Assembly: GCA_001599355.1 (NCBI GenBank)
Contig: BCGQ01000001.1
Span: forward strand, 1,243,135-1,307,134
Source of the DNA: Nakazawaea peltata
Taxonomy: Eukaryota > Ascomycota > Pichiomycetes > Alaninales > Pachysolenaceae
DNA length: 64,000 nt
Direction of reading: 5' to 3'
Of this stretch, positions 1-64,000 are shown one piece after another. The first letter of the stretch is position 1, and each line of letters begins with the position of its first letter. Both the position numbers and the translations under genes were made by a program. The notes under the pieces are model-generated. The model did no database searches and had not been told where the DNA came from. It saw only the letters and a list, made by a program, of their open reading frames with translations.

Positions 1-150
1 CAACATGCTGGTAATTTGAAGAAGATGGCCGTTACTATTTCGAAGGAGACTGATAGCCAAAATAAGCGTATGAATGATATTGAGGAGGATGCTGATAAGT
101 TGGATATTAGTGTACATATGAATAATCATAGACTTAATGGGATGAGATGA
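1..150 (+). CDS. SEC9: SEC9/SNAP-25-type t-SNARE, C-terminal end (partial)
   Basis: The window opens inside a reading frame of 49 codons ending in TGA at 148-150. The peptide reads like the C-terminal half of the second SNARE helix of Sec9: a KETDSQNKRMNDIEED stretch followed by DKLDISVHMNNHRL and a short end in GMR. Yeast Sec9 ends in nearly the same way (a DSQ..RL..IEE..DDLDI..H.N..RL motif with a terminal GIR). Sec9 is the plasma-membrane SNAP-25 homologue that pairs with Sso1/2 and Snc1/2 in exocytosis. The 5' part lies outside the window. Spo20 is an alternative only in species with that paralogue. Confidence 0.85.
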   Translation, partial: QHAGNLKKMAVTISKETDSQNKRMNDIEEDADKLDISVHMNNHRLNGMR

Positions 151-184
151 TATGGGGGTATTGAAGTGATTGTGTAGGAAAGGG

Positions 185-275
185 AAGAATTAGAGATGTA
201 AAGAAGTAAAGACGTAGAGTAGAGAGGTAAAGAAGTAGAAGAGTAGAGAAGTGAAGAAGTAGAGGTGTAGAGGTC
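185..275. repeat. GA-rich imperfect repeat downstream of SEC9
   Basis: A purine-rich run built from variants of AAGAAGTAGAG (GTAAAGAAGTA, GTAGAGAGGTAAAG, GTGAAGAAGTAGAG). It lies directly after the SEC9 stop. It is simple sequence with no coding sense. Confidence 0.7.
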
Positions 276-342
276 TGCCTAGATGACTGTAAAGGAAGTG
301 ACTCTGGTTCTGCAGTACTTTGTAGTATGTTCTGTGATGCAG

Positions 343-447
343 TCAGTGCTTGCCAGTGCTCGTGTCAGTGCTTGCCAGTGCTCGTGTCAGTGCTTGTCAG
401 TGCGTCAGTGCGTCAGTGCGTCAGTGCGTGTCAGGACGTCAGTGCCC
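343..447. repeat. CAGTGC-based tandem repeat upstream of RKM5
   Basis: Two near-identical copies of a 22-bp unit (CAGTGCTTGCCAGTGCTCGTGT) are followed by four copies of the 8-mer CAGTGCGT. The block ends about 75 bp before the RKM5 ATG, so it sits in the promoter or 5' leader. The short frames crossing it are repeat artefacts. Confidence 0.85.
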
Positions 448-524
448 ATCCCTTACCTGCCAGTGCATGTGCGCGCACACTATAACAACTCCCTCACTTT
501 TTCCAATTTACCCTACCTTCCACA

Positions 525-1448
525 ATGGATTTCACCGTGGATTGGACGCCTCTAACCACGAAGGAAGAGGCAGAAGATCACGTATTTGAGTTATATTCGG
601 TCAATGGAGTGATATCAGAACTGAATTTGGGGTTCATCAGCTCTCTGCTGGGGAAATTAGTCGTCACCGTGGGAGATGAAGAGTACCAAATAGAGCAGAT
701 GCCGGCACTTTTAAAGTCGAATTCTTTGAGCTCTACTACTGGGTATGTTGCTTGGAAGGTGACTCCATTGTTTTTAGATTGGTTTAGGAATCAAAATTGG
801 GTCAATTTCAATATTTCAGGTCCAGGAGATGCTGATCAGTTTGATCCCCTGGCTCCACTCAAGACAGCCTCTATTTCATCGATCTTAGAATTGGGATCAG
901 GAGCAGCTGGTATTCTGCCAATGTTTCTAGGACATCGAGTATCTCATTTCATTGCCTCAGACATTGACCACACCATTATAAAGCTCCTCAAATCCAACAT
1001 TGTAAATAACGTAACCAATCCCTTCACTTCTTCAACTATAGACACAGCTTATCAAGGCCAAGGAAGAAACTCTAAAAGTAAAAGAAAGACAGGAGGATCT
1101 AAAATATCTAAAAGTTCGATCAATGTCATAGAATTGGATTGGGAGAACCCTGAACAAGGCATATCTTTCATTGAAAATTCGCTACCTTCGGCTCCGGATC
1201 TCGTCATTCTGTGTGATTGTATCTACAATGAGTATCTTATTCCTCATTTTATATCTACACTTGTACTGACTAAAGCTGTTCATATATTAGTTCTGATCCA
1301 ATTGAGAGATACAGATGTCATTGAACTGTTTCTCTATGAATGTATAAATTATAAGGAAGATTTGAGACTTTGGCATATAAATACTGAGTTTCTAAGTGAG
1401 GATCTTCAGAAGGGGTATGGGATTTATTATATGAGGAGACAAAATTGA
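525..1448 (+). CDS. RKM5: Ribosomal protein lysine methyltransferase Rkm5
   Basis: 307 residues, class I SAM-dependent methyltransferase. The N-terminal part contains SSTTGYVAWKVTPLFLDW, which matches the STTGYV.W..TP.F..W signature of yeast Rkm5, the enzyme that monomethylates a lysine of the large-subunit protein Rpl1. The SAM-binding motif I is ILELGSGAAGILP at about residues 121-133. A later strand (DLVILCDCIYNEYL) carries the family's D.IYN acceptor-side motif. At 307 residues it is somewhat shorter than the S. cerevisiae enzyme (about 367). The ATG at 525 gives the conserved N-terminus and lies just after the CAGTGC repeat. It is on the same strand as SAC3, 566 bp upstream of it. Confidence 0.85.
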   Translation: MDFTVDWTPLTTKEEAEDHVFELYSVNGVISELNLGFISSLLGKLVVTVGDEEYQIEQMPALLKSNSLSSTTGYVAWKVTPLFLDWFRNQNWVNFNISGPGDADQFDPLAPLKTASISSILELGSGAAGILPMFLGHRVSHFIASDIDHTIIKLLKSNIVNNVTNPFTSSTIDTAYQGQGRNSKSKRKTGGSKISKSSINVIELDWENPEQGISFIENSLPSAPDLVILCDCIYNEYLIPHFISTLVLTKAVHILVLIQLRDTDVIELFLYECINYKEDLRLWHINTEFLSEDLQKGYGIYYMRRQN

Positions 1449-2014: not shown

Positions 2015-5000
2015 ATGTCGTCGGCGTTTGGACTCCCAACGTTCCAAGGAGCCGGTCAAAATCAGAAACAGCGACCACAACAGTCTAATACTCAAGGTGG
2101 ACGTAACCCAGGTGGCCAAAATGGAGGTCAGCAATCAGCTAACAACCAGAGAAAACCATCCCGTCAACAGCGGCGTACTCCGTCCAATAATAATGGACCT
2201 AGACAGGGCGAAAGAGCTGGAACCACTTCAAATAATGGAAATCATCCCAATCAACAAGGAGGAGATGGCCCACAAGGCCCAAGAAGGACCAAAAAACCGA
2301 GTATCCCAAATAAGAATCCCTCTCAAACCATATCTCAACCTCAAAATCCCAACCCCCCCTCTCAAAATCCACCTCAAAATCATCCAATTCCATCAAACCC
2401 CAAATTCATTGATGGACCATCCAAAATTCATGACCAATTCATAGGTCCATTACTTAAGAATGCCAACCAAATTGGATACCAGCCACTTCAGAGCCGCCAG
2501 AGTCACCAACTACCCTCATATTTGATCCAGGAAAAACGTATCCTCCTATCAGAATCTTCTCCCCATTTCGATCAATGGGATTTAGCCAACCAACAACAGA
2601 TGATGCAAATTGCGTCCTCATCTGGCGACCAGAAAGACTTAATGGATGTCCTTGAATCGATGAGAGCGAAAGAGAGAACCCAAATGGAGAATAAAGGACT
2701 CGTAGACCGTCTGAATGTAGCCAAAAGTTTGAGTGATCTGATCGTCTTCAGAGGAAGTTGTCTTTATATGTGTCCTGTCTTTGAGACGGTAAAGAGGAAG
2801 TTCAATGGAGATATCAGTAAATATGAGAAGCCCAAGGCCGCCTCTACCTCCGAAATCACCATAACCTCCATAATCAGCTCGGCTATCAAGACTTTCTCCA
2901 GATCAGAGCTGGGCCAATTACCCCAATTACCCTCCGATGTTCGTCCTCCTCATATCCTTGTCCAGACCCTCGATTACATGATCGATCACTTGGTAGATCA
3001 ACTCCCCGATCTGGAACTGTTCATATGGAATAGAACTCGTAGTATCAGACAAGATTTCACCTACCAAAACTATTTCGGTCCGGAACTGGTTTATTGTACC
3101 GAGAAAATCGTAAGAATTCATATCATCACATTGCATATTATGGCCGGGAATGACGTTGAATACTCTCAGCAGCAGGAATTGGAGCAGATGAACAAATCTT
3201 TGGAGACTTTGAACGAGATTTATGACGAAATTAGAGCTGCTAATCACATAAAGACCCCGGAAAAACTGTCTTTACTTACAAATGAGGCTGAATTTCGTAG
3301 TTATTACTTACTTTCATACTATGACAGGCCAGAATTGAACCAAATGATCCAGAATTTACCCTCTGAGGTTTACAATCATCCATCAATTCAGCAACTGATC
3401 CAACTCCGAGGTTATTTATTACAAAGAAAAGGTGTGGGAAGTTTCAACTACTTTTCTGGGTTCTTTTCCACCGTGTTGAAGAGCCAGAAGATCTCATTTT
3501 TGACTCTGTGTCTTGTAGAGACTCATTTCAACGACATTCGTTTCAATCTGTTGAAGCTGATGAGTCAGTCTTATCACAGTGGAGGAAAACCTTACTATGC
3601 TCTGAGTTTACTGGAGATGCTCGGTTTTGATTCGGCGAATGATCTCTTGAAGTTCGTGACCTACTATGATTTGAAGGTAGAGAACGAGGGTGGTCAAGAG
3701 TGTGTGTATTTGTCACCTTTCAAGTATAATTCCGTCAGAGATAAAGAGAGACCAAAGCAACTGTATACTAAGAAATTGGAGACCAAAATGGGTGGATTAA
3801 GTTATAAAGAGATTATTCATGGGCTGGGCAAGGGTAGTGAGATGTTGGAGAGTGTTCAAAATATGGCCAAGCAGTCGATGCAGATGCTCGAGAAGTTGGA
3901 ACCGATCAGTACGGTTGATTTTTCACTGATCCAAGAGCAAGAACTGGAGAAATTGAAGCTTAAAGAGCAACAAAAAGCACTGGAAATGCTGAAATCTGCC
4001 CAACAATTGGAAGCTCAGAGGGCTCTGGAACTGCAAAGAGCTCTGGAACTACAGAAAGCCGCGGAACTGCAAAGAGCTTTGGAGCTGCAAAGAGCTCTTT
4101 TACAACAGAAGCAACAGCAAAAGCAACAGCTTCAACTCCAAAAACTTCAACTGGAAAAAGAACAGAAAAATTCCGAGCAACAAAGGCTCCACAATGCTGC
4201 CGCTGCCTCCATTTATGACGCTCTTCTTAGAGAGACCATTCATGAGCTGCTTATTACTCAGATCCTTCCTTCCCTGGTGGAGAATGAGATCCAGACCCGT
4301 CAACGTGGCGAGCTTATCAACCTGTTCAGTAACGAGTTGTACGCTCTGTTTGTTCATGAATTGACTGCGCTTAGCGTAATGGAACTGAGCCTGGAGGTAT
4401 TCCGTAAGAAACAACTCCAAAGGAAAATCATCCACGCCGTTTCCCCCGTCCTGCAGCGAGCCCTCCTCAGAGCTCAATCGAAAAAACGTAGAATGAAAGA
4501 GCTCGAAGAGTTCTCAGGAAGATTACCGCACCTGCAGCTTGACTCCAAGCTTGTGCAAAGGAAATTGAAGAGAGCAAGACTTGAGACTCAGCGTAAACTG
4601 GACGAAGAGAAACTGTTCTTGATGCCTATTGATATTCAGCACGACATCGTAGCCCGTATAGGAGGTTCTTGGAGATTACAGATGCTTTTAGTAGTTCAGG
4701 ACTGGTCCGCGCCGAATTCCCAGTGGTTACTGACCAAATTGGGTCTAGATCAGACTGCTTACGAACGTAGAATTGTAGAGGCTAAAGAGAATGAGTCGAA
4801 ATCGTTACGTATACGGACGATCCCGGCCGATTTTGACGAACGTCGTTTATTCCATAGATGCGGCTTAGTTTTATTTGAGTTTGGGATCGTTTCGGCATCT
4901 CTGCCTGTTTCAGAGGACTCTTTAATCCTGAAACTTCGTCTAGATAGCAAGGTTTTACTGAGAGTGCTTTCAATGCTGCAAAAGAATTCGGTATTCTCTC

Positions 5001-5671
5001 GTATACGAGTAGGTATTCTTATCTATGGAGGAACTAAGGTGTCTACAGAAGAAGAATTGAAGATTCCGCAATTAAAAGAGCAATTCGGGCCATTTTTAGA
5101 CTCGATAAATATTTATGATATGCAGCTCAAGACTTCCACAACCCCCAACGTCAACATTGCAATGTCCGAATCGTTGACTACTTGTTTGGCTGATTTGTCC
5201 ACGACTTTCCAACCTGAAGAAAAGGCGACGAAGCAAAAATCGTTACCCCCTTCGCTTCCTCTGCCATCGGTAGTGGTCCCGGAGAAACAAGTATCACCAC
5301 AAATGCTCCTGTCTCGACGCAAGCGTGTGGATTTCCTCAGGTCTTCAATTCTGCATAATAATGGAGGAGGTTTAAGAAGTTCTCGCAGTAGAAACACTTC
5401 GTTTAACAACTCCACTTCATTCCAGACCACATTCTTGCCCCAACCTCAAGGTACAGGGGCTCTCCAGTCGAGACGTCGTATTTTCAGCATCAACAATACA
5501 ACCGCAGCCGTTAACACTTCCGGGATTACTTTGGGACCCTCTTTAGGTGCAGGAAATCACGCGGGAAATATTAGTCGGAATGTTAGCTTCAGCAGTACTA
5601 ACAGCGCCGGAGGATCTAAGCTTGCAGATTTACGGAAACTTACAGCTTCTATTTTGAGTAAGAAACAATAA
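2015..5671 (+). CDS. SAC3: mRNA export factor Sac3 (TREX-2 scaffold)
   Basis: 1218 residues. The N-terminus (about 1-190) is low-complexity Q/N/G/P, typical of Sac3. The SAC3/GANP helical domain follows (about 235-560) with landmarks RGSCLYMCPVFE, ELFIWNRTRSIRQDFTYQN and a KIVRIHI helix. Residues about 640-720 form a long Gln/Glu/Ala-rich helix with tandem QRALE-type repeats. The helix after it (about 725-830) corresponds to the CID region that binds Cdc31 and Sus1. The tail is Ser/Asn-rich. The family scaffolds TREX-2 (Thp1, Sem1, Sus1, Cdc31) at the nuclear pore and couples transcription to mRNA export. Many CTG codons fall in the central helix, so the true protein is richer in alanine than a standard-code translation suggests. 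Confidence 0.93.
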   Translation: MSSAFGLPTFQGAGQNQKQRPQQSNTQGGRNPGGQNGGQQSANNQRKPSRQQRRTPSNNNGPRQGERAGTTSNNGNHPNQQGGDGPQGPRRTKKPSIPNKNPSQTISQPQNPNPPSQNPPQNHPIPSNPKFIDGPSKIHDQFIGPLLKNANQIGYQPLQSRQSHQLPSYLIQEKRILLSESSPHFDQWDLANQQQMMQIASSSGDQKDLMDVLESMRAKERTQMENKGLVDRLNVAKSLSDLIVFRGSCLYMCPVFETVKRKFNGDISKYEKPKAASTSEITITSIISSAIKTFSRSELGQLPQLPSDVRPPHILVQTLDYMIDHLVDQLPDLELFIWNRTRSIRQDFTYQNYFGPELVYCTEKIVRIHIITLHIMAGNDVEYSQQQELEQMNKSLETLNEIYDEIRAANHIKTPEKLSLLTNEAEFRSYYLLSYYDRPELNQMIQNLPSEVYNHPSIQQLIQLRGYLLQRKGVGSFNYFSGFFSTVLKSQKISFLTLCLVETHFNDIRFNLLKLMSQSYHSGGKPYYALSLLEMLGFDSANDLLKFVTYYDLKVENEGGQECVYLSPFKYNSVRDKERPKQLYTKKLETKMGGLSYKEIIHGLGKGSEMLESVQNMAKQSMQMLEKLEPISTVDFSLIQEQELEKLKLKEQQKALEMLKSAQQLEAQRALELQRALELQKAAELQRALELQRALLQQKQQQKQQLQLQKLQLEKEQKNSEQQRLHNAAAASIYDALLRETIHELLITQILPSLVENEIQTRQRGELINLFSNELYALFVHELTALSVMELSLEVFRKKQLQRKIIHAVSPVLQRALLRAQSKKRRMKELEEFSGRLPHLQLDSKLVQRKLKRARLETQRKLDEEKLFLMPIDIQHDIVARIGGSWRLQMLLVVQDWSAPNSQWLLTKLGLDQTAYERRIVEAKENESKSLRIRTIPADFDERRLFHRCGLVLFEFGIVSASLPVSEDSLILKLRLDSKVLLRVLSMLQKNSVFSRIRVGILIYGGTKVSTEEELKIPQLKEQFGPFLDSINIYDMQLKTSTTPNVNIAMSESLTTCLADLSTTFQPEEKATKQKSLPPSLPLPSVVVPEKQVSPQMLLSRRKRVDFLRSSILHNNGGGLRSSRSRNTSFNNSTSFQTTFLPQPQGTGALQSRRRIFSINNTTAAVNTSGITLGPSLGAGNHAGNISRNVSFSSTNSAGGSKLADLRKLTASILSKKQ

Positions 5672-11101: not shown

Positions 11102-13150
11102 ATGACGTCATCGGGAGGTCCAAATTATCAACGATCAGAAATGGAAACGGGAGTGACAGATTCAGGGGCAGGTAGCGAAGTGAGGAACCAGGATCCATTT
11201 GCCGAATCTGACGGGTCAGGGTCAGGATCAGGATCCGTTTTTTCCGAGATCGAGATGAAACCAAACTCTCTGAAAGTGATGCATCACCATCATTTCAAGC
11301 CAACGACAGAGAACCCATTTGCGGACTCAGCCGACGCGGCCGCACTGGCCCTGGGTGGAGCCGCTGCTTCTAAACTGCGCTTGAGCTCTTTCAACAATAA
11401 ACCCGAAACTTCGTTTTTCGATGTCGGCGACCAGGGGGGTGAGGAATATGAGCTACACGGTTTAGACGGGGATCTGAGACGGTTAAGACGGGGGTCGAAT
11501 GATGAAGATCAATTTGATGCCGAAGCTGACGCTTTTATTGGACTGGATTTCGATACCATTGTGTCTGCTTACCCTCAAGTGAACTTCCACTCACATCCTG
11601 AACAAGGTGTTTGGTTGAAAGGCATGTCTTTACTTTATTTTACCTCTCTGTTTGTATCTTTGGGGGTGTTTGTGTTTGGATATGACCAAGGAGTGATGTC
11701 TGGAATCATCACAGAAAGGACTTTTGTCCAATTTTTCGATGAACCAACCAAACTGCAAATAGGAACCGTCGTACTGATCTTAGAGATCGGCCTGCTTTGC
11801 AGTTCACTTAGTGTAGGAAGAATTGGAGATTCTCTCGGTCGCAGAAATACCATTTCGGTCGGACTGTTGATCTTCGTAATCGGAGGACTCATCCAATGTC
11901 TTAGTAATAAGATTTGGGTGTTAATTATAGGTCGTGTCGTATCTGGAATTTCGATCGGATTACTCTCTGCAACTGTTCCAATGTATCAGACCGAGATTTC
12001 TCCTCCTTCTTCTAGAGGTAAATTGGGATGTATCCAATTTTCCGGAAATATTTGTGGATATATGCTGTCTGTTTGGGTTGATTATTGGTGTTCTTTCGAT
12101 ACTTCACAAATCTCTTGGAGAATGCCTCTTTTCTTACAATCTCTGTTGGGATTTTTGCTTTTTGTAGGAGCATTTTTCATCGTTGAAAGTCCTCGTTGGC
12201 TTTTAGAGAAAGATCGTGATACCGAAGGTTTTAGAGTCTTAAGTTTGTTATACAGTGACTCAAGAAGTATCCTGCTGCCTCCTCAACTGGTGCAAGAATT
12301 CCATCTTATCAAATCTTCAATTCTTGAGGACAGAATCAAATCTCCTCCTCATCTTCGTACTTATAAAGTCATGTTTAAGAAATATTGGTACAGAGTGATG
12401 ATCGCATGCTCGCTGTTGATGTGGCTGCAAATTAATGGTATCAATGTAGTATGTTATTACCTGCCAATGTTGTTTGAGCAGCTGGGTTTCAAAAGTAGAC
12501 TGCTGTTACTTGTCACCGGACTCAATGCCATCGTATATTTATTACTGACGATTCCATCATGGTTCCTCGTAGAAAATTGGGGCCGGAAACCTATCTTGAT
12601 GTATGGTGGATTTGCAATGGGATGTTGTTTGATGGTGATTCTGTTCCTGGAGTTCATCGACAAACCTTCTTCTCCTATTGTTGTGCTGGTGTTTGTAGTA
12701 TTATATATGCTGTTATTCCTGATGTCTTGGGGACCAATTCCATGGTTGATGTGCGAGATATTGCCATTACAAGTCCGTGCCAAAGGTCTGTCTCTTTCCA
12801 CACTGACAAACTGGATCTTCAACTACCTTGTAGGTCAAATGACGCCTGTATTAATGGAGACGATCAAATACAAACTTTATTTCATGCATGGATGTTGTTG
12901 TTTTGGCTCAGTGGTGTTTGTATGGAGATTCTTTAAAGAGACAAGGGGTGTAGAATTAGAAGATATGGATAAATTATTCAATGATGGAGGGGTTTCTGCC
13001 GAAGATACCGATTATAGTGCTTTGGGGGCTCAAAATCATGGAACAGATCATGATATTGTAGTGGGAGATGATCCGCTCAGTGATAATGAGAATCCTTTCA
13101 ATGATGGAGATTCCGATGATGGTAGAAGGAATACACGTAATGTGATTTAA
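11102..13150 (+). CDS. MFS sugar-porter family membrane protein with long acidic tails
   Basis: 682 residues. An acidic, Gly/Ser-rich cytosolic N-terminus of about 180 residues precedes 12 predicted membrane segments, and an acidic tail of about 70 residues follows. Sugar-porter motifs are clear: FGYDQGVMSGII in helix 1, GRIGDSLGRRNT between helices 2 and 3, GRVVSGISIGLLS in helix 4, PMYQTEISPPSSRGKLG, and ESPRWLLEKDRD after helix 6. The helix-7 region (WLQINGINVVCYYLP) corresponds to QQ.(S/T)G.N..(F/Y)Y in hexose carriers, with changes at the QQ positions. That argues against a standard glucose transporter. Both tails carry NPF tripeptides in acidic surroundings. Vacuolar or endosomal sugar porters are plausible relatives. 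The substrate is unknown. Confidence 0.88.
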   Translation: MTSSGGPNYQRSEMETGVTDSGAGSEVRNQDPFAESDGSGSGSGSVFSEIEMKPNSLKVMHHHHFKPTTENPFADSADAAALALGGAAASKLRLSSFNNKPETSFFDVGDQGGEEYELHGLDGDLRRLRRGSNDEDQFDAEADAFIGLDFDTIVSAYPQVNFHSHPEQGVWLKGMSLLYFTSLFVSLGVFVFGYDQGVMSGIITERTFVQFFDEPTKLQIGTVVLILEIGLLCSSLSVGRIGDSLGRRNTISVGLLIFVIGGLIQCLSNKIWVLIIGRVVSGISIGLLSATVPMYQTEISPPSSRGKLGCIQFSGNICGYMLSVWVDYWCSFDTSQISWRMPLFLQSLLGFLLFVGAFFIVESPRWLLEKDRDTEGFRVLSLLYSDSRSILLPPQLVQEFHLIKSSILEDRIKSPPHLRTYKVMFKKYWYRVMIACSLLMWLQINGINVVCYYLPMLFEQLGFKSRLLLLVTGLNAIVYLLLTIPSWFLVENWGRKPILMYGGFAMGCCLMVILFLEFIDKPSSPIVVLVFVVLYMLLFLMSWGPIPWLMCEILPLQVRAKGLSLSTLTNWIFNYLVGQMTPVLMETIKYKLYFMHGCCCFGSVVFVWRFFKETRGVELEDMDKLFNDGGVSAEDTDYSALGAQNHGTDHDIVVGDDPLSDNENPFNDGDSDDGRRNTRNVI

Positions 13151-13673: not shown

Positions 13674-16600
13674 ATGAGTGAGGTACTGTCGCCTAAGAGT
13701 GACCGCAAGTCATCATTGAAGAAGGTTGTCGAGTCCAATAAGAAAGCTAGTACTGGAAGTTGGGTCTCACCTTTTAGAAAGAACAGTAAGAAGGTAGAGA
13801 AGAAGGTTGAGAAGAAGGTTGAGAAGAAACCTGAAGAGAAGAAAGAGAAGGTGAAAGATGAGGATAAGGTTGAGGATAAGAGTGAGGAGGTTGCTGAGGA
13901 GGCTGCTGAGGAGGCTGCTGAGGAGAAGGGCGAGGTAGAGGGAGGTGAAGAGAGTGGTGAGGTTGCTGAGGCTAGTGAGGTTGCTGAGGCTAGTGAGGCT
14001 GCCGAGGCTGCCGAGCCAGCCACTGAAAAAGTTGAAGAATCAGCCACTGAAGAAGCCACTGAAGAAGCCACTGAACCAGTTGAAGAGCCAGTTGAAGAGC
14101 CAGCTGAAGAGCCAGCTGCCGAACCCGCTACTGAAGAACCTGTCGAACCTGCTGCTGAACCTCTGTCAGACCCATTGGCAGAAAAATACGAATCTCAACC
14201 AAAATTACTCAACAGATACTATGAAAACGTCGAATTGGCCACCAATTCCTTAGAACAAAAAGGTGTATCGAACCCAGATCGTGTTGTCAACTTGGGAGCC
14301 GGCTTAAACTTGACCGAGGCCCAAATTATGGCCATTCTGCAAAAGAGAGTCAAGCCAATCTTGAGCAACATCGACAAAACCGTCCTGAAAAATGTGGCTA
14401 GTGACGAGAAGAAACAACAAGAACTCAACACCAAGTACACCCTGCAATTGGAGTCGAAACTGCAAAAAGAGTTGAAGAAATACCAAGGCAAGATCGAGAA
14501 AGAGAACGTCAAGATCAATGCCCAATATGACCTGGAGATCAAGAAATTGGAGCTGAAATTGGCCCAAAACCTGAAAGATCATCTGAAATTCTTGAAGGAT
14601 ACCAAGAAGCTGATGGAAAAGTATGACTCTGATGCCAAGGAGACCGAGACAAAGCTTGCTGGGGAGCATGAGACCAAGTTGGAGTCGATTAAGCAAAAAC
14701 TGATCGACTTGAAGGAGTCCAAGACCAAAGCTATTGAGGATCTGAAGCTGAAACAAGAAGAGGAAGCTCAATTGGAGCTGAGTCTGTCTGAGGAGGCCCT
14801 GCTGAGCGAGAAGAAGCTGGACGAGCTCGAACTGGAGATCGAGACCGTCAAGCTGGACTTGGAACTGAAGCAGGCTGCTCTTGCTGAATTGGAGCTGGAG
14901 AAAGAGCACCATTTGAAGGTGATTTCCGACTCTCAACTGCAGAAGGAGAACTTGACCAAGAGTCTTGAAGAGCTGGATGCCAGTTTGAAGACTGTTGAGA
15001 AGAAGCACTCCAAGTTGACTGGCCATGTTCTGTTGTTGGCCTCTACTTTGCTGCTGCACCAGGCCAAGTTGTCTGGGTTGACTGGAGACGAGGTTTCCCA
15101 AGCTCGTTCTGCTCAATTGGATGAGCTGAAGAAGACCAAATCCGAGTGGGATCTGGAGCAAGAGCTGATGAGAATTGCTCTGTATAAAGAGCAAGAGAGG
15201 ATCAAGTTTGAGAACGAACTGAAGAGATTGAGAGAGGAGGAAGAGGAGCTGGAGAGATTGGAGAGAGAGAGGATTCTGAAGGAAGAGGAGGAGCTGAGAT
15301 TGGCTAAAGAGAGGGAGGAGGAAGAGCTGAGATTAGCCAAGGAGAAGGAGGAAGAAGAACTGAGATTGGCCAAGGAGAAGGAGGAAGAGGAGCTGAGATT
15401 GGCCAAAGAGAAAGAAGAAGCTGAAGCTCGTCTGGCTAAAGAGAAAGAAGAGGAAGAAGCTCGTCTCGCTAAAGAGAAAGAAGAAGCTGAGGCCCGTCTG
15501 GCCAAAGAACTGGAAGAAGCTGCTCTGAAAGCCGAGCTGGAGAAGATCAGAATCGCCAAAGAAAAGGAAGAAGAAGCCGCTAAAGCTCTGGCCTTGAAGA
15601 AGGAACGTGAACTGGAACTGATCCAATTGCTGGAAGAGGTCCTGCTGTTGAAGAAATTGAACGAATTGAAGCAACAAAAGGCTGAATACGAAAGACAATT
15701 GGCTGAGCTGGAACTGTCTCTTGTTAAGAAACAAGAAGCTGAAGAGGCTGCTGCTAGAGCTGAGCTGGAGCTGGCTGAATCTGCTGCTGCTAGAGCTGAG
15801 CTGGAGCTGGCTGAATCTGCTGCTGCTCTTAAGCTGAGTGAAGCCAAAGCTGCTGCTGCTGCTACTGCTGCTTCTGAGGCTGCTAAGGCTCCTTCTGCCG
15901 TCACTCCAACTGCGAGTAAAGACTTAACTGGGGAACAGAAGAAGTCTTCATCTGCTCCAATTGCCGCAGCTGTTGCTGCTGGTGCTGTCGGAGCTGGTTT
16001 GACCGTTGGAGCTGTCGAAGCTTCTGAAGCTACTGCCAAATCTGCTGGTATCAAGGCTGTTTCTGTTACTCCAGTCAAACTGAAACTGTCGTCAAAGCCA
16101 GTCGAGAGATCTTCTAGTTTCAAATCGTTTAGAAACAAGTTATTTGGAAAGAGCGAGGCATCGAAGGAGCCAAAGGTTGTGGCTAAGAGTCCAGTTAAGA
16201 GTAAGAGTAAGGCACCAAAGGCAGCTGTAGCTGCTGCTACTACTGGGGCTGCTGCTACTGTTGGAGCTGTTGCTGTTGCAGCTGATAAGGTGGAGGAGCC
16301 AGCTGAGACTGCTCCTGCTCCAGAGGCTGAAACTGAAGCTACTGAGACTGCTGAGACTGCTGAACCTGAAGCTGCTGAAGCTGCTCCTGAAACCAAAGAA
16401 GAAGTCTTTGAAGAACCAACTGTCGATGAACCTGTCGCCCCAATCACCGACGAAGCTGCTCCATCTGAGTTGGAGAAAGAACCTTTCGTAGTTATTGATG
16501 GAGATGTTCCTCAACCAGAGGATATTCCAGTTCAAACTGGAGCTGAAGAAGTTCTGGAGGCTGTTCCAGAAACTACTGAAGCTGCTCCGGAAGCTGCTCC

Positions 16601-42991: not shown

Positions 42992-43606
42992 ATGTTGCAA
43001 TTTACTCATCTCTTCACCCTCTTGATACTGTTCCTCACTACTCTGGTTCATCTGCACCATAACGTGTTATTACCCCCAAATGGCAAGCACTGTTTCTTCG
43101 AAACCTTGAAAAGAAATGACGAATTAGCTGTCACATTCCAAGTCGGTGATAGAAATCCTCAAAGTTCTTCTCAATTAACTCTGGATTTCTGGATTGCCGA
43201 CCCAAGAGGCCAAATCGTCAAGCAATTATCCGACGTTTCACACGGTGACACCTCTATTAAGGCTGCTAGCAATGGAAAGTACACTTACTGTTTCTCCAAT
43301 GAGAGATCATCATATGATACCAAAGATATCACATTCTATGTCCATGGAGTAGTTTACTTCGATGTTAATGATGAGAGTTCCGACAGTTTGGAGGTTGCTA
43401 TTAAGAAATTGACCGAGTTGACTTATGACGTTAAGACTGAACAAAGTTATATTGTTGTTAGAGAACGTACGCATAGAAATACCGCCGAGTCTACTAATTC
43501 GAGAGTTAAATGGTGGTCTCTTTTCCAATTGATTGTTGTTGGACTGAATTCTGTATTTCAAGTTTATTATTTGAAGAGATTTTTCGAGGTTCGTACACCT
43601 GTTTAG
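42992..43606 (+). CDS. EMP24: p24-family COPII cargo receptor Emp24
   Basis: 204 residues. Signal peptide (about 1-21), then the GOLD domain beginning HNVLLPPNGKHCFFETLKRNDELAV and containing FQVGDRNPQSSSQLTLDFWI and YTYCFSNERSSYDTKDITFYVHGVVYFD. A coiled-coil stem with SYIVVRERTHRNTAESTNSRVKWW leads to a membrane helix and the short cytosolic tail YYLKRFFEVRTPV, with the FF ER-exit signal. It matches yeast Emp24 along its length. Emp24 works with Erv25 in COPII vesicles, sorting GPI-anchored proteins. A CTG at 43544-43546 in the membrane helix falls on a conserved Ala (VVxANS in yeast). Confidence 0.96.
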   Translation: MLQFTHLFTLLILFLTTLVHLHHNVLLPPNGKHCFFETLKRNDELAVTFQVGDRNPQSSSQLTLDFWIADPRGQIVKQLSDVSHGDTSIKAASNGKYTYCFSNERSSYDTKDITFYVHGVVYFDVNDESSDSLEVAIKKLTELTYDVKTEQSYIVVRERTHRNTAESTNSRVKWWSLFQLIVVGLNSVFQVYYLKRFFEVRTPV

Positions 43607-46900: not shown

Positions 46901-49900
46901 CGTCTTCCCAAGTGGTGATGTATCTGAAGATGGTGGGGATGATCTTGTCGTCGTCATGAGACATACCTGACCGGAAGTGAGTGATACCTGTGTCGGTCTG
47001 TTGAGACCATCTCAAGTCACTCAGAGGGATCAAGATATGAGAAGCACTCAACATCCCGAGACCACCGAGCTCTTTTGGAGTGTAAAAGACGGCAGGAGGG
47101 AATCTTGAGGGCATCTTGGAGTTCAATCCAAGCTTGACTCGGGTTTGGATCTTGGTCTCCAGCTTAACGAGACTATCAAGTAAAGCCGGAGTGGAGATCA
47201 GCAGCTCTCGATAGTAGACGAACATTGAGATGAGGGCCGTGTTCCATTTGCTGGCTATTTTGGTGAAGGTAGTTGAGCCTGAAGACATGAGGATTTGACG
47301 AATTCGGTTATTGAATTTGTCGATGTGGGGTTGAGATACTTGGAGGAACAGTTTCAGGGTACGGTGTTTAGTGGTGAAGTTGATGAGGTCCCAGCACCCC
47401 TCTGTGCTCTGCAACTCTGTGCCCGGCAATGAACTTGAGCCGGACAGAGAGCTGCCAGAGTTGCCGGGCACAGAAGCCGAGCCGGGCACAGAACTGCTAG
47501 GCTTAACTCTAATCTCAAACCCTCCCATACTCATCAAAACATTAGGATTATCCTCACTATACACCGACAGCATCGTATCCTCCCAATTCATACTAACCAA
47601 CGACCTAGGTACCCTCCCCTCAATATCCCAATACACAGCCCTCCCCAAATTCACATCTCCTCTCATCAACCTCATCCTACAATCACGAGGCCAACATCTA
47701 CGGTTATTATACCCTACGATATTCTCAAAGTTGGGGTCCGGATGCATCGAGAGATAGTCCAGGACCAACTCCTCAGCCTCCTCCAGCTCAAACCTCAAGA
47801 AAACATACACCTTGTCGATATATCTCAAGTAGCCTCTGATAGGATGTCTTCTCTCGGTGGAAAGATCACCAAATTGAAGCAACTCGTTCGGCAGTCCAAC
47901 AGGTCCAGCTATATCGGTGGCTCTCTCAAGTCCAAGGATCAACAAATCAATAGCCAACCCATAATACTGAACTATAAACGATGAGAATTGAAGTCCTCGA
48001 ATCAACCCATACTGATTGACATGGCTCATGTCTTTATAAGTGAGTCCTACATTGTTCTTCAGAGTAATATAGTCGGCAATATTGGAGTCGACGACCAATC
48101 TCAACAACCTGTTCAATAAGGTGAGATCCACTTTCTCACAAAGTTTGTTCAAATTGGTCTCGAACATGACATTCTTCTGGCCCTTTGAAATATCCCAAAC
48201 CTGATCAAGGTTGTTGATCCCCTGGCACCATTTATATACCAACAATGGAGTGATCTCCAGGTCGGTTGGTTTGACCCAGTTGGGGAACAACTGTCTCTTA
48301 TCACTCTCATACCATAAGTATTGATCCAAATACAGATCGGTGATCTTCTCCAATGGGTCTACATCGTAGCAAGGACTGAGATGGCTGTAATGGTCCATCA
48401 TTTCGATGCCCACCTCTTTGAATACTCGCTGGGTTAAGAGTAATTTCTTGATCCTTGCGAGACATTCATGAGGATTATCGTACAGTTGCTCGATCAACAG
48501 CAATTCCTCACGTTGACTGGCATTCAACCGGCCCTTGGCCGAGTAACTCTCCTTCAACCCTTCCAAAGCAAGTACAAGTAACTTGGTGTCATGTTTATAA
48601 CTCAATGGAGGGAATGGGATCGGTTGGAATTGTCTACTTTCCAACCAATGGACCATCGTTTGGAATACCAGAACCAGTTCTTTAGCAGAGACGTAGGGAC
48701 CTTCTTTTTGGAAGTTCTTCTGTCTCTCTTGCTCGTTCTTGACCCATAACCGAGTCAATCTCCCCAAATTCTTCTTCAGAACAGCCTTGTCTACGGTAGC
48801 TCCTCTTCTTATTCTCTCCCGATTGTATTGAGCAACACTAATCCACCCATCCAGCTTCAGTTTCACATACTTCTCAATAATCAGCTTCACAGGCTCGGGC
48901 ATCCCAGGAACATTCCATGGAATATTCAGTTTCCAACATCTCCACAGTTCACTCAAATGCTGAAGAACCACTTTAGATTTGTCCTGTTTCATTCCAGCCG
49001 GCATCATCTCAATAATGTCATGTAATACCGAGGCTCGTAACTCCAAATCATAGTACGAATCCACACGTTGCTTAGTGATCGTCTTGGCTACACTCTTGGA
49101 CTGTCTTCCTTCGAATTGTCTCAGTAATAAGTTACCCAACCATCTTTCGAGCAATGGGATGATTCCTCGAACAAAGGCTATCCAGACTCTCCAAGCTGGT
49201 TGCCAGAACCCGTTACCGGGACCCTTCCCAACCTCTTTAGTGTTGAACATATAGTACAATACATGCTTGAGGTCTTTACATTTACGGATTTGATGCATCA
49301 CCTTGTATTTGTACCGGTAGATCCCTGTGAGTTGACCCAAATGGTTCAAAATGTAGTGGATCCCGTCGGCAAGTTGGTAAGCATCGACATTACCCAACCG
49401 GAACTGAACATGAGTGTCTACGATCAACTTCAATACTCTCAAGAGCTCTCTCATGAGATGGAACAGGTTCCCGAACCTCGATCTTTTACGTTCTTTGGTC
49501 GTCAAGGTCTTGGTGGGTTTGAGATTGAAATTGTAATCCAAATGAAGGTAAGTGAGACCTTTCCTGTGGATGAGAAGGTTCAACATATTGAATCCTTGTT
49601 GGACTACTTGGAGACCGGCTTCTACCCAGTCGACAGTGGTCTCTTGGAAGTATTTGGTGTTCTTGAGGGTTTTAAGAAGCGAGATTTTATGGTGTTTGTT
49701 CTTCTTGGTGTGACGTTTCTTTAACTCGTTCAGGACATGGGTTTTGAGTAACTTTTGATATGAGACTCTCACTTTGACAGGGTAGTCGTTGACTTGACGG
49801 GAGGTGTACCAGTTTTTCAGGAGAGGGACGTCTTCAGCTCTGATGGTCTTACCTGTGTGAGAGTTGAAGGGATGAGGAGCGAATAAGAGTTGGAGGGCAT

Positions 49901-51440
49901 CGGGAGAGCCAGAAGGTTCGAGGGGAGCATCATTAAGAAGAGGGATGGGGACTTCGTCGTCATCGTCAGTGTCCGCATCCTCTGTGCCCGGCTCATCACT
50001 GCCCGGCCCATCACTGCCAGCCCCCCCTCTTCTACTTCTGCCCGCTTCTCTCCCTATCACATTCAACTCCCGTCCAAACTCAAACCCACCCTCTCCTCCC
50101 ATCCTAACCCCCTCATAATACCTACCATTCACCACCCCATAAACATTCGAATTATACAAATAAGGAAACAGAACCTTATACTCACTCCTGATCTGAGTCC
50201 TGAAGAATATCCTATCGATCGAATTGAACTCATTGAAATCCTCTTCATCAGGATTAGTCTGGTTCTGAGGCAATGGCTCAAACTTCGGCCCCCCAGGAAT
50301 CGCTATATTCAACAGTTTAGCTGTGAGAAACGACTCAGTATCAAACAAGTACTTAGGGTCCAGATCCGATAAGAGGGGTGTAGAAAGACGGTACAACGTG
50401 GCCAATTTGCCCAAACTCAACTGCCATTCACGATAAGACTCTCCGTTCACCGATTTGGGGTCGTCGACTAACGGTCTCTCGTCGTAGATCCAGTCACTCA
50501 CATCACCGTCTTCCTCGGTGTCCAAGTCTGCCATGATAGGTTCCGGAGGTTGGACATCCTGGATGTTATCACTCCAATTGATAGGAGGTTCTTCATCGTC
50601 GAACAGAGGGAACCTCATTCTCTTGAAATGCTTTCTGGCCAGCTTCTCTCTTCTCATCAGCTGCCACATCGTAGCCCATTGAGCTGTATATACAGGTTCG
50701 ATTACTCTTGGAGTCTCGTTGACAAACGTGATGGCTCCCGTGATGTGATATAGCACCTTGACTTCCTTCTCGGCTTCCCATGGTTGAGGCATGTTCTCGA
50801 GTAACTTCAACACAGCATGAGGGAGGTACTTCAAAGAGCCCAAGTACAGTCTCTTATCGGCCGAGAATCGTTTCGATGACAAATCTCCATGCTCTTCCAT
50901 GATCTTTCTGAGATGCTCTGGAGGCATCTCCAGTTTGGTGGAATGGACAAATGATGACCCTGTAGCTTTTCTTATAGATTGGTGTCTTCTCTTTTGTAAT
51001 TGAAGCCATTTGGCTTTCCTCAGATCGAGATCTTGGGTTGAAATGTGTCTTGAAGTGTGAGAGGAGTTAGCTCTTGCTGCTGTTCTGAGGGGAGGAGGAC
51101 CAGATGGTGTTGTGTCAGGTCTTACTCCGGGTCTTACTCCGGATCTTGGGACATTAGGTTTTGGTGGAGGTGGGGCGACCCCTGATCTTGGCGGTGGTGG
51201 AGCTCCAGATCTTGGTGGTGGGGCAACTCCAGATCTTGGTGGAGGTGGGGCCACTCCAGATCTTGGTGGGGGAGGCGCTCCTGTTCTTGGTGGGGGAGGC
51301 GCTCCTGGAGGCGCTCCTGAGCCGTTAGTTCTTGATGGAGGCGCTCCTGACCTCGTCAGAGGCACACCTCCTGGCCCTGAGGCACTCGTTTTTTGCCTCT
51401 TAGGCCCATTTCCAGGCGGTGGCGGTGGTGGAGGAACCAT
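43956..51440 (-). CDS. PRP8: U5 snRNP core splicing factor Prp8
   Basis: 2494 residues from the ATG at 51438-51440. In-frame sequence 9 bp further upstream is a TTG and is not used. The N-terminus (1-120) is Pro-rich with RSG(A/V)PPPP repeats. The PRP8 core follows: [37 protein letters not shown], the reverse-transcriptase-like and linker regions, [50 protein letters not shown], then the endonuclease-like, RNase H-like and C-terminal Jab1/MPN domains ([36 protein letters not shown]). Prp8 is the scaffold at the spliceosome active site. The CTG at 48060-48062 lies in YITxKNN, where Prp8 has Ala. There is no intein. CTG codons elsewhere need the Ala reading. Confidence 0.98.
44336..44380. promoter_or_regulatory. 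Cluster of three CACGTG sites inside PRP8
   Basis: CACGTG at 44336-44341, 44351-44356 and 44375-44380; the last is in the extended palindrome GGTCACGTGACC. This is the core recognised by Cbf1 and other bHLH factors. It lies in coding sequence near the 3' end of PRP8, about 750 bp from the EMP24 stop, so a regulatory role is speculative. Confidence 0.3.
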
Positions 51441-54867: not shown

Positions 54868-55734
54868 ATGCCATTCACCACCGACTCAACTACCAAGACT
54901 TTCGACGGAAAATTACTCAAATTGTCCCATGACTCTCTGACAGTCAACTCTAAAATGAACGTCAACGTTTACTTGCCTCCTCAATATGATGAGTCCAAAC
55001 CTGAAGCAACCCCAGTTTTGCTCTTCTTATCAGGATTGACTTGTACTCCAAACAATGTCACCGAAAAAGGTTTCTGGTACCCCTACCTGCTGCAATACGG
55101 TTTCCTGTTGGTCTTCCCAGACACCTCTCCAAGAGAAGTCGCTATCGATGGAGAAGAATGGTATGTTGGTACTGGCGCTGGATTCTACGTCGATCTGACT
55201 GAGCCGGAATGGTCCAAGAATTACAAGATGTATTCCTACATCGACGAAGAATTGCCAACCAGTTTACTGGCTGAGTTCCCAGGTTTAGATTTCTCCACCA
55301 ATTACTCGATCACCGGTCATTCAATGGGTGGTTACGGAGCTCTTTTACATTACTTCACCTCTAAAAAACATTCATACAAATCATGTTCTCTGTTTGCTCC
55401 ACTGTCCAATATTTACTCCAACACTTGGGCTGAGCTGCTGCTTGCCAAATATTTAGGTGAAGATCGTTCCCTGTGGGCCAAATACGATTTGGCTTCTATC
55501 ATTGAAAACTACAAAGGTGACCTTTCTGCTGACGTTTTAGTTCACGTCGGTTTGGCCGATAACTTCTACGATGTGTTGAAATGTAAAACCCTTGTAGACC
55601 TGAGCTCCAAGAATGATTTATTGAAAGACAAAATCAAATTAAACGAAGTCGAAGGTTATGACCATTCATACTTCTTTATTAGTTCCTTTGTCAAGGACCA
55701 TGCTCTGCACCATGCCAAACACCTTGGTTTGTAG
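54868..55734 (+). CDS. S-formylglutathione hydrolase (esterase D family)
   Basis: 288 residues, alpha/beta hydrolase of the esterase D family, orthologous to S. cerevisiae YJL068C. Landmarks are MNVNVYLPPQY, LFLSGLTCTPNNVTEKGFW, VFPDTSPRE, EEWYVGTGAGFYVD, YSYIDEELP and the nucleophile elbow GHSMGGYGALL (Ser at about residue 152). The Asp of LADNFYD and the His of GYDHSYFF complete the triad. The enzyme hydrolyses S-formylglutathione to formate and glutathione, the second step of glutathione-dependent formaldehyde oxidation. CTG codons at 55390-55392 and 55402-55404 lie in SCSxFAPxSN, where the family has Ala at least at the first site. No C-terminal SKL is visible, so a cytosolic location is expected. 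Confidence 0.95.
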   Translation: MPFTTDSTTKTFDGKLLKLSHDSLTVNSKMNVNVYLPPQYDESKPEATPVLLFLSGLTCTPNNVTEKGFWYPYLLQYGFLLVFPDTSPREVAIDGEEWYVGTGAGFYVDLTEPEWSKNYKMYSYIDEELPTSLLAEFPGLDFSTNYSITGHSMGGYGALLHYFTSKKHSYKSCSLFAPLSNIYSNTWAELLLAKYLGEDRSLWAKYDLASIIENYKGDLSADVLVHVGLADNFYDVLKCKTLVDLSSKNDLLKDKIKLNEVEGYDHSYFFISSFVKDHALHHAKHLGL

Positions 55735-57990: not shown

Positions 57991-58847
57991 AATGTAACAC
58001 TAGCCTGTTAATCTAGGGCACGGATCTGAGCGGCAGGATCTATAAAGGGCGGGATCTATGAAATGCTTATGCAAATCTGCCCGTCTAAAACAGGTAATTC
58101 TAAATAATATCACCTTTCTGCCCCACCCCAAGAGAAAACGAAAAAGTTAATTTGCCGGAGTTTCTCGTCAAACGTACTCAAAATATTATTAGCAACCACC
58201 GCATACTCTAAAGTAATTACCTGATTTAAAGAACAAAGCAAACTTTTGTACATCTCGGCACTCTTTAAGACCGAAAGCGCACAATTACATGCAAAGGAAA
58301 ACTTAAAATCAATAGAATTCACTGCGGGCTGCGCACATTCCAGCCCCGGTGGACCAAGGATCTTTACCGCTTCGAGTGTCACGATTCCTTGTTATATTTG
58401 ACTAGACGGTTGACAAGGGTATCAAAAAGAGAACGCCTTGTTAAAATTGACGAATTTCGATTTATTTCTTCCACTGAAAAATATGTTCATCTCATACATC
58501 TTGTATCTTTATCTCCTCAGATCTAATCATGTGAAACAAAAAACTCCCACCGCAAAGCCCAAAGATTGTCGATCGTGGTGATTCACTTGTGAAATCTGGC
58601 AAAAGGTCGTTGCATGCGCGTCGTCACTCACAGATTTTTTGCGCAGGAAAAATGATTTGCCCTTAAAAGATTGAGTGCAAGATAGGTAGGGTGTACGTTT
58701 TGTATTTTAAGTTTGGTTTTTTTGAAACTTTGAGATTACATTAACTGCGCGGTCGGTTTAACCTCGGTTCAAACTTTGTCATATGGAGTTATGTAGTAAA
58801 GGATAGATGTGGGGGGAGAGTATTGGTTGAGAATATCACAGGAACAT

Positions 58848-60106: not shown

Positions 60107-60119
60107 AAAGCCGATAAAA

Positions 60120-60569
60120 ATGTTGAGAACATCGTTCAGACAATTACCAAGCATCACCAAGGTCGGTATCAGAAACGCTTCTGCCTTGTCCAACGCCACT
60201 GTTGCCAACTTGGAGAAGAGATGGGATGACATGCCATCTGGCGAACAAAAGTCTCTCATTGCCCAATTAAGCACAAGACAACAATTGCCATGGAAAGAGT
60301 TGACTGCTGCCGAGAAGAAGGCTGCTTGGTACATCTCTTTCGGTGCTTGGGGTCCAAGAAAGCCAATCCACACTAAGGAGGACAAGTTGTACATCTTCTG
60401 GGGTGTCGTCATTGGTTTGAGTATTTCTGCTGCTTTCTTCCTCAGCTTCAGATCTCAACGTTACGTTCCAAAGACTATGAACAGAGAATGGCAAATGCAA
60501 TCCGACGAGTACTTGAAGTCCAAGAACGCCAATCCATTCTCCGGTTACTCTCAAGTTCAATCCAAATAA
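60120..60569 (+). CDS. COX5: Cytochrome c oxidase subunit V (Cox5)
   Basis: 149 residues, the usual Cox5a length. The N-terminus is a mitochondrial presequence (MLRTSFRQLPSITKVGIRNAS). The mature protein has LEKRWDDMPSGEQKSLIAQL, QQLPWKELTAAEKKAAWYISFGAWGPRKPI, a single inner-membrane helix (YIFWGVVIGLSISAAFFLSF) and RYVPKTMNREWQMQSDEYLKSKNANPFSGYSQVQ at the intermembrane-space side. This is the COX IV superfamily subunit that stabilises the catalytic core of complex IV. I find no CTG codon in it, as in RPS27, which fits a highly expressed gene. A leader intron may end 13 nt before the ATG. Confidence 0.96.
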   Translation: MLRTSFRQLPSITKVGIRNASALSNATVANLEKRWDDMPSGEQKSLIAQLSTRQQLPWKELTAAEKKAAWYISFGAWGPRKPIHTKEDKLYIFWGVVIGLSISAAFFLSFRSQRYVPKTMNREWQMQSDEYLKSKNANPFSGYSQVQSK

Positions 60570-62056: not shown

Positions 62057-62105
62057 TAATAGATAGAGCTAGTTTGAAAATTTCGGTGTAATGATGTAGA
62101 AGTGT

Positions 62106-62227
62106 GATGAGCTACAAGCTACTCATCCGGATGAGTGTCAAAGGGTCCGGCCGAAATGCGCATCGCAGGCGGAACTTCAAAGGGGGTTCCTGCTAGTGAA
62201 AAAAAAAATTGGGCGGAGAAAATTTTT
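62106..62227. promoter_or_regulatory. PAC-core palindrome and RRPE-like element
   Basis: GATGAG at 62106-62111, the 14-bp perfect palindrome CTCATCCGGATGAG at 62122-62135 (two facing PAC cores), and GAAAATTTTT at 62218-62227. They lie 50-170 bp before the ATG at 62276, as expected for a ribosome-biogenesis promoter. Confidence 0.5.
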
Positions 62228-62275
62228 AATATAGTTGAAGATAACGACAAGATACACAAGATACCCCACAGCGAT

Positions 62276-62914
62276 ATGAGTGACGAAGATGATGATCATA
62301 TGATGTCAGGACCAGTTATGGAGTTTGATTTCATCGAAGTTGAACCGGAAATTCCCCTGGAAGACCCAGTTAATGACGAACAAGAATATGAGTTCCCCTT
62401 ATTTGGAGGAGGAATTAGTGTAGGAGATGATAATGAGGCAAATAATGATGAGAACCAACAGGAAGTGCGAAATGTGATCAAAGTTTCACTTAAAGAAGAT
62501 GAAGAAGAGGAATATGTGCCGGCAACTCGCCCGGAAGACTACTATTTTTACCATTCTACCACCGAGATGAGACTGCAAATAGAAGCCAGTCTGATCTCCG
62601 GAGAGATGGTGCTTAAACAGAGCAGAGAAAAAGATGCTGATGCGCATCCATGGAAAGTTACCCAATTAAGTGATAAGATCGCAGCATCTGCCGCTGAAGA
62701 AGCGGCAATGGTGAAGAAACGTAAGCAAAGACCGGGAAAGAAGAAACGCCAACTGATAATCCTGTCTAGAGAACGCAAAGAAGAGCGGCTGAAGACCCAG
62801 AAGAGATTGGAGAGGGCCCTGAAGAAGAAGTTGATGAAGAAATTGTACCATAAGAGAGGAGGGAAGAAGAATAAGAAGGGAGGAGCTGCCGTTCCAAAAT
62901 TCTCTACAGAATAA
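62276..62914 (+). CDS. Probable nucleolar ribosome-biogenesis-type protein
   Basis: 212 residues from the ATG at 62276 (MSDEDDDHMMSGPVMEFDF). An earlier in-frame ATG at 62156 would add 40 residues, but that stretch holds the RRPE-like motif and an A9 run and looks like leader. The protein has an acidic N-terminal half, a central block RPEDYYFYHSTTEMRLQIEASLISGEMVLKQSREKDADAHPWKVTQL, and a strongly basic C-terminus (KKRKQRPGKKKRQLIILSRERKEERLKTQKRLERALKKKLMKKLYHKRGGKKNKKG). The layout resembles the fungal DUF2011-type family from memory; I cannot name an orthologue. Basic tail and promoter motifs suggest the nucleolus. It is convergent with COG5, with 34 bp between stops. Confidence 0.82.
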   Translation: MSDEDDDHMMSGPVMEFDFIEVEPEIPLEDPVNDEQEYEFPLFGGGISVGDDNEANNDENQQEVRNVIKVSLKEDEEEEYVPATRPEDYYFYHSTTEMRLQIEASLISGEMVLKQSREKDADAHPWKVTQLSDKIAASAAEEAAMVKKRKQRPGKKKRQLIILSRERKEERLKTQKRLERALKKKLMKKLYHKRGGKKNKKGGAAVPKFSTE

Positions 62915-62948
62915 AGTCATTTACGTCAAATTTAAGCATAAAGTCAAT

Positions 62949-64000
62949 TCATTTAAGTATTCCGATACTATTTACCATCATTGTAATCTCTAAACCATCT
63001 TTCTTGATCATTCCTTGGTAATTATTATTGAGGAGTTCGGTAATAATGGAGTTATTCATCTCCGAGTAATGCAGTTTCAAGTTCTTCGACACAGGTCCAC
63101 CTTTCGTATAGATTTTTTTCAAGTTTGCCTCGAAGAATTTCAGTAAATCACGGTAAAATATGGAGATGAGATTATTTGAGTTGGGGAAAACGATCTCATT
63201 CTTGATTAACAGGTACTGGATGATCAAGATCAATTTCTGGTACTGTTGCAGCACTTGCAGCATCAGTTGAGAGAAAGTCCTTGGGTTAGTCAACGTCTTT
63301 GTAAGGGTATTGGTGGAGATTGAGATGTTGGAATTGACCAAATCAACAACCTTCTTGGATAATAATTGCACATCATAATGACTGTACAGGACCACCAAAT
63401 GATGGACCAGAACATCTGATGAAGTCGACCCACTCAATTTACGGAAAGCTTCGTTCAATAAATCCTGGGTTTTGAACTCTTTTGTTTGAATTATCGTATC
63501 ATATTCTTTAATTAATTTCAAACTTTTCAAGAAAATGGAATTGGTCTCTTTATAACTCTTCAATGATTGTAAATTCTTAGTCAATTTGGTCAAATGTTTG
63601 GTCGAACTATCCTCTAGACAAGTGGATAAAGACTCTTCTAAATTTTGTACCAAGTATAAAAAGAATTGAATACTTCTTAATAAGATGGATGTAGTGTAGA
63701 TTTTTTTGAGCAGACCATGTAATTCAAGTGATTCATTGTATGGTTTTAGTATATCCTCGTCCAATTTGTCGAATGATTGGTTCAAATCATTCAAAGATGG
63801 TTGTAAAACACCGATCAGATCTTGGATTTTATCCACTTTAGTTACCTCATTCAACAAGATCTCATAGTTATTACCCACCAACTTGCTAAGACGCTTATCG
63901 ATCTCCACCAAATCGAAACCCAATCTTTTGGAAGGCGTTGTTAAATCCAAATCGTTATTTGAAGCTGAGGAATTGGTCAGTAAAAGTAAGGTGTTGGCGA
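62949..64000 (-). CDS. COG5: Conserved oligomeric Golgi complex subunit 5 (partial at 5' end)
   Basis: The frame is open from the stop at 62949-62951 to the right edge (about 350 codons), so the N-terminus is outside the window. It has DLTTPSKRLGFDLVEIDKRLSKLVGNNYEILLNEV, a long helical stretch (LQPSLNDLNQSFDKLDEDILKPYNE, LLRSIQFFLYLVQNLEESL, LKSLKLIKEYDTIIQ), and a C-terminal region ending HYSEMNNSIITELLN...GLEITMMVNSIGILK. The all-helical pattern with LRSIQFFLYL fits Cog5, a lobe B subunit of the COG tethering complex that acts in retrograde intra-Golgi traffic. S. cerevisiae Cog5 has about 403 residues, so roughly 50 may be missing. A CTG at 63978-63980 should read Ala. Confidence 0.82.
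   Translation of the reverse strand, partial: ANTLLLLTNSSASNNDLDLTTPSKRLGFDLVEIDKRLSKLVGNNYEILLNEVTKVDKIQDLIGVLQPSLNDLNQSFDKLDEDILKPYNESLELHGLLKKIYTTSILLRSIQFFLYLVQNLEESLSTCLEDSSTKHLTKLTKNLQSLKSYKETNSIFLKSLKLIKEYDTIIQTKEFKTQDLLNEAFRKLSGSTSSDVLVHHLVVLYSHYDVQLLSKKVVDLVNSNISISTNTLTKTLTNPRTFSQLMLQVLQQYQKLILIIQYLLIKNEIVFPNSNNLISIFYRDLLKFFEANLKKIYTKGGPVSKNLKLHYSEMNNSIITELLNNNYQGMIKKDGLEITMMVNSIGILK

Follow-up and report, generated by a model that had tools for sequence, protein, structure and literature searches.

Which amino acid does the codon CUG specify in the yeast represented by contig BCGQ01000001.1, of which a stretch of 64,000 nucleotides (the window, always meant in its full length) was analyzed here? 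A preliminary description, made from the letters of the window, had noticed that CTG repeatedly falls where protein families have an invariant alanine and had concluded that it encodes this amino acid. Homologue alignments, domain scores and codon counts lead to the same answer: the window is almost certainly nuclear DNA from a budding yeast that uses CUG fully as a codon for alanine (NCBI genetic code 26).

Homologous residues at CTG codons

Eight proteins encoded in the window were aligned to homologues from the Protein Data Bank. Seven of these were searched with CTG masked as X, because a bias was to be avoided, and GLC7 was searched with CTG as alanine. The tally relies on one homologue chain per protein and comprises 4492 aligned codons, with further printed chains (more for PRP8, four for ARO2, and others for S-formylglutathione hydrolase, KTR, SAC3, MFS, ULK and PP1) standing outside it. 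Excluded from the tally were a low-complexity stretch of PRP8 with its surroundings (a block of some 100 columns), parts of two insert-bearing PRP8 blocks and a two-residue KTR block. The excluded PRP8 block holds one CTG column (VPLxKNWY), which is alanine in chain 3jcm, valine in 9r8v and isoleucine in 9l5r.

At the 144 CTG columns of the tally, the homologues carry 70 alanine, 14 serine, 11 threonine, 6 valine, 6 isoleucine, 6 glycine and 3 leucine residues, or 67 alanines at 140 columns if GLC7 is left out. Thus, the columns are not dominated by leucine or serine; such dominance is what the preliminary description had named as the finding that would refute alanine. The GCN codons, likewise represented by 144 columns, meet 74 alanines and 15 serines, and the residue profiles of CTG and GCN are indistinguishable (permutation p ~0.98); from the profiles of serine, leucine, threonine and glycine codons, that of CTG differs with p ~0.0005, the floor of 2000 permutations. 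In strongly matching contexts, defined by at least 75% identity among up to four neighbours per side, CTG coincides with 33 alanines, 6 serines and no leucine (n=51), and GCN with 42 alanines (n=56). The log-likelihood of the CTG columns is −293.8 as alanine, −364.0 as serine and −624.9 as leucine, the BLOSUM62 sum is highest for alanine (248) with serine next (100), and alanine is the best reading in each of the eight proteins taken separately. When each codon was assigned the residue that maximizes its BLOSUM62 sum, CTG emerged as alanine and the standard residue was recovered for 59 of the 60 other sense codons, the failure being CGC with n=4 sites; CTA is represented by 2 sites only. This codon-by-codon result bears out the interpretation given in the preliminary description and makes CUG the sole sense-codon change that is detectable here.

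The individual codons on which that description had built were likewise inspected. All 15 listed positions are CTG, in frame and within the motifs named, and at each of the 12 that have a structure-database alignment the homologue does contain alanine. The remaining three (SAK1 31579, SRP102 37019 and EMP24 43544) were judged by Pfam score only, which is also the sole test for the SRP102 codon in the motif NKxD, cited without coordinates and found to be CTG. These scores favour alanine for SAK1 and SRP102, but slightly leucine for EMP24 (Table 1). At some columns alanine recurs throughout: ARO2 residues 212, 214 and 220, all encoded by CTG, are alanine in 5/5 chains shown, and so is residue 175 of S-formylglutathione hydrolase, with three of its five chains being near-identical versions of one protein.

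Domain scores and alternative readings

In addition, 20 proteins were scanned with CTG as alanine, serine and leucine, and the Pfam scores of their 30 main domains were summed, with the main family kept and overlapping families excluded; eight further proteins (five and three) were scanned with CTG as alanine only. Two of the 20, encoded at 6458-7789 and 60983-62056, matched no Pfam family. The sums amount to 5756.5 bits for alanine, 5649.7 for serine and 5475.1 for leucine, and alanine is strictly best in 25 of the 30 domains. Among the excluded overlaps, PK_Tyr_Ser-Thr and Kinase-like of SAK1 as well as KH_1 favour alanine, too.

Several observations weigh against this assignment. Four of the 30 domains score higher under another reading, albeit by small margins (ELO and SF1-HH as serine, EMP24 and Zn_clus as leucine), and in PROCT alanine and serine are tied. 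The excluded overlaps MFS_1, zf-CCHC_2 and, in SRP102, Arf and Gtr1 score best as leucine, which is mostly preferred by the other excluded GTPase-type overlap families of SRP102 as well, while PK_Tyr_Ser-Thr of ATG1 scores best as serine. Moreover, residue 570 of PRP8 is encoded by CTG where three distinct chains have leucine (9r8v, 9l5r and 3jcm, the last of which, like chain 1r52, we take to be from Saccharomyces). Finally, the window contains no credible tRNA, so that the decoder of CUG is one that we infer.

The two domains that score higher as serine, together with the rank of serine as second-best reading overall, would fit a CUG that is decoded in the way known from the Candida (Ser1) or Ascoidea (Ser2) clades, namely as serine, in which case the alanine-looking columns would merely be small-residue columns. 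However, serine occurs at CTG about as often as at GCN codons, whereas serine codons themselves meet serine in 144 of 314 columns. The CTG profile is unlike theirs at the permutation floor, and the log-likelihood lies 70 units below that of alanine. These sequence comparisons refute serine, which retains hardly any credibility.

Even less credible is that CUG has kept its standard meaning, leucine. This would account for EMP24, Zn_clus and a few excluded overlaps such as MFS_1, and for the conserved leucine column in PRP8. The latter is the one clear counter-example to the remark in the preliminary description that no conserved leucine requires CTG, a remark that otherwise agrees with the data, given that leucine is found at just 3 of 144 CTG columns and at none of the 51 whose context matches strongly. 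The other leucine codons, in contrast, coincide with leucine in 310 of 442 columns (CTA, CTC and CTT in 85 of 128), and leucine falls 331 log-likelihood units short of alanine. By the same kind of comparison, leucine is refuted as well.

A subtler possibility is ambiguous decoding, i.e. CUG being mostly alanine, with leucine or serine genuinely inserted in a minority of cases. A mixture fit indeed peaks at 2% leucine and at 2% serine, and PRP8 residue 570 at its leucine column would suit such a model. Yet, the support intervals (0-7% for leucine, 0-17% for serine) both include zero, and for Pachysolen a passage in PMC8645108 gives more than 99% alanine and calls an earlier estimate of 10% leucine mistaken. 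Mixed decoding is thus unlikely and not needed to explain the data, although low-level mis-incorporation of up to 7% leucine or 17% serine, as delimited by these intervals, may occur.

CUG as the leading alanine codon

Across the 25 open reading frame genes of the set (14158 sense codons), CTG leads the alanine codons with 441 of 1185 occurrences (37%), ahead of GCT with 393. It makes up 144 of the 288 alanine codons within aligned columns and 33 of the 75 at sites where the homologue has alanine in a strongly matching context, and its density is 32 per 1000 in aligned columns versus 31 per 1000 overall. From the G+C content of 0.42, CTG would be expected to take a share of 0.22 of the alanine codons, compared to the observed 0.37; hence, composition alone does not explain its abundance. 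This thorough takeover of alanine coding is the part worth following. CUG is here no relic confined to unimportant sites. If the standard code were applied to this genome, about 31 residues per 1000 would be wrong in the resulting proteins, alignments or trees.

The 25 genes differ in their CTG share beyond chance (p 0.0001). This share is low in the open reading frame at 60983-62056 (1 of 12 alanine codons) for no obvious reason, and not low in GLC7 (5 of 15). Two genes that were found later lack the codon altogether: RPS27, whose exon 2 contains seven alanine codons, all GCT, and a cytochrome oxidase subunit gene of the COX4 family (Table 1). The intron of RPS27, read by eye from the sequence, begins with GTATGT, contains TACTAAC and ends with AG. 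Together, these genes have CTG at 0 of 20 alanine codons versus 441 of 1185 (Fisher p 0.00018), which provides a lead toward avoidance of CUG in highly expressed genes and suggests that the CUG-reading tRNA may be a minor one. It has to be held against this argument that it comprises two genes and 20 codons chosen after the zeros had been noticed, with high expression being assumed from gene identity. If the avoidance is true, tRNA supply would constitute a testable limit on the rate at which a captured codon spreads.

CTA is scarce in the window, with 22 of 1193 leucine codons and a fraction of A among A/C/T endings of 0.056, compared to 0.137-0.465 in seven other codon boxes. This was considered as a trace of conflict with tRNA-Leu(UAG), an idea that was dropped, since CTA is described as unpreferred throughout the subphylum in a section of PMC11540330 and its depletion is hence not specific.

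Candidate decoder and course of the reassignment

A standard tool predicted zero tRNA genes in the 64-kb window, also with introns of up to 500 bases allowed, and an Rfam scan of the window gave 0 matches at gathering score. With longer introns permitted, ARAGORN reported a tRNA-Ser at 16892-17651 (− strand) with a 665-base intron. This prediction extends over the final part of the coiled-coil gene and was taken as spurious.

The pair G3:U70 is the alanine identity element. A plausible candidate for the decoder, modelled on the published CUG-Ala clade, is a tRNA-Ala whose anticodon was mutated to CAG and which would consequently read CUG. According to a passage in PMC5951914 (Krassowski 2018), each recoded clade has a new tRNA(CAG) that arose when the anticodon of an existing gene mutated; the same source mentions that alanyl-tRNA synthetase needs no particular anticodon bases and that the leucine tRNA(CAG) of the ancestor disappeared. 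Because the enzyme is independent of the anticodon, it could charge the mutated tRNA-Ala, and the old leucine tRNA(CAG) would be gone. The reassignment is probably old and essentially complete, given that CUG nearly never stands at leucine columns and that, in aligned domains, roughly every second alanine codon is CUG. Furthermore, CUG cannot be reached from GCN by changing a single base, and yet it has attained this half, which points to a long time since the reassignment.

Genes and other features of the window

The window consists of compact yeast nuclear DNA. Besides the 25 genes, it holds three that were found later and do not enter the counts of the 25, namely RPS27, the gene of the COX4 family and part of COG5 (Table 1). 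Three antisense open reading frames (14304-15026, 44832-45329 and 49263-49724), each of which overlaps a longer gene, were removed before counting. Gene names follow Pfam and Protein Data Bank matches, except for SAK1, whose name stems from the preliminary description.

Table 1. Coordinates of the genes and codons discussed, with CTG counts, residues of the homologues at tallied CTG columns and Pfam scores.
Feature	Position	Strand	CTG codons	Homologue residues or Pfam scores	Remarks
SAC3 mRNA export protein	2015..5671	+	43	14 tallied, 7 Ala	
Sugar transporter	11102..13150	+	30	24 tallied: 6 Ala, 3 Ser, 2 Leu	Homologue distant, evidence weakest of all
Long coiled-coil protein	13674..17150	+	63		228 alanine codons; without Pfam family
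ATG1-type kinase	24425..26893	+	29	10 tallied, 6 Ala	Two MIT domains
KTR/KRE2-type mannosyltransferase	26998..28296	-	12	10 tallied, 4 Ala	
SAK1-like kinase	28810..31974	-	29	Pkinase bits 188.1 Ala, 185.1 Ser, 180.1 Leu	
ARO2 chorismate synthase	35184..36221	-	13	12 tallied, 7 Ala	
SRP102 (SRP receptor beta)	36887..37663	+	6	SRPRB bits 121.1 Ala, 114.9 Ser, 107.7 Leu	
PP1 phosphatase, GLC7-type	39512..40507	+	5	4 aligned: 39836, 39995, 40250 Ala; 39764 Ser	
RPS27	41359..42092	+	0 in exon 2		ATG 41359-41361, long intron directly after ATG, exon 2 41847-42092
EMP24/p24 protein	42992..43606	+	5	Bits 171.8 Ala, 173.3 Leu, 169.6 Ser	Exception, Leu slightly ahead
PRP8	43956..51440	-	63	58 tallied: 32 Ala, 5 Ser, 1 Leu	Leu at residue 570
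PRP8 residue 570	49731-49733	-			CTG at leucine column
S-formylglutathione hydrolase	54868..55734	+	13	12 tallied, 5 Ala	
Cytochrome oxidase subunit, COX4 family	60120..60569	+	0		13 alanine codons: 6 GCC, 7 GCT
COG5, partial	62949-63998	-			Extends past window end

Three side observations can be added. In EMP24, residue 21 is encoded by CTG (43052-43054, + strand) just ahead of the likely mature start, and if it is read as alanine, the residue close to where signal cleavage is expected would be a small one, as judged by eye. The removed frame at 14304-15026 (− strand), 240 open codons antisense to the coiled-coil gene, has CTN codons that are nearly all CTC and CTT, and is likely a by-product of a coding strand rich in GAG and AAG. 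Between genes, a short repeat is present at 57809-57997 (+ strand), one frame of which yields REID/REGD-like units.

Comparison with known genetic codes

The kind of code found here, a rare one, is already known from one small group of yeasts. It is the CUG-Ala code (table 26) that has been established for the order Alaninales, which in NCBI taxonomy comprises one family, Pachysolenaceae, with Nakazawaea placed within; a passage of PMC12322030 counts 17 genomes of this order. As summarized in a passage of PMC5951914, the code was described for Pachysolen in 2016 and then extended to Nakazawaea and Peterozyma. A Codetta screen of 462 yeast species, described in an excerpt of PMC8629427, gave a CUG prediction for 453 that matches the known distribution. 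The window shares with the Alaninales the change of CUG to alanine, the absence of any other visible sense-codon change and a yeast gene set. Placement among Pachysolen, Nakazawaea or Peterozyma would accordingly follow from the code and not from phylogeny; a yeast outside Alaninales that reached CUG-Ala independently, i.e. a second origin of the code, is very improbable.

With respect to codon usage, reassigned CUG is called relatively rare and inclined to poorly aligned sites in a statement of PMC5951914 that covers several clades. In contrast, CUG in the window is the leading alanine codon and equally dense in aligned columns and overall. Mean CUG frequencies of 0.003-0.006 are given in a part of PMC8084343 (2021) for three GAL genes of reassigned species, a survey from 2019 excluded five Ala-clade genomes according to a passage in PMC6701816, and a 2024 survey with Alaninales included states CTG avoidance, in the section concerned, for two serine orders (PMC11540330). 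The literature searched, supplementary tables aside, yielded no CUG frequencies for individual species of the Ala clade, and dominance of CUG is not claimed to be unreported. Because the published statements cover several clades, usage such as that in the window may be the norm for some of the Ala-clade yeasts.

The CUG-Ser1 code of the Candida clade (table 12) resembles the present case in that the same codon was reassigned in budding yeasts, but differs in the amino acid, serine being rejected here. Serinales moreover avoid CTG, as stated in a passage of PMC11540330, while the codon is abundant in the window. The CUG-Ser2 clade (Ascoidea, Saccharomycopsis) again concerns the same codon, with possible mixed decoding by two tRNAs, whereas neither serine nor mixed decoding is supported in the window.

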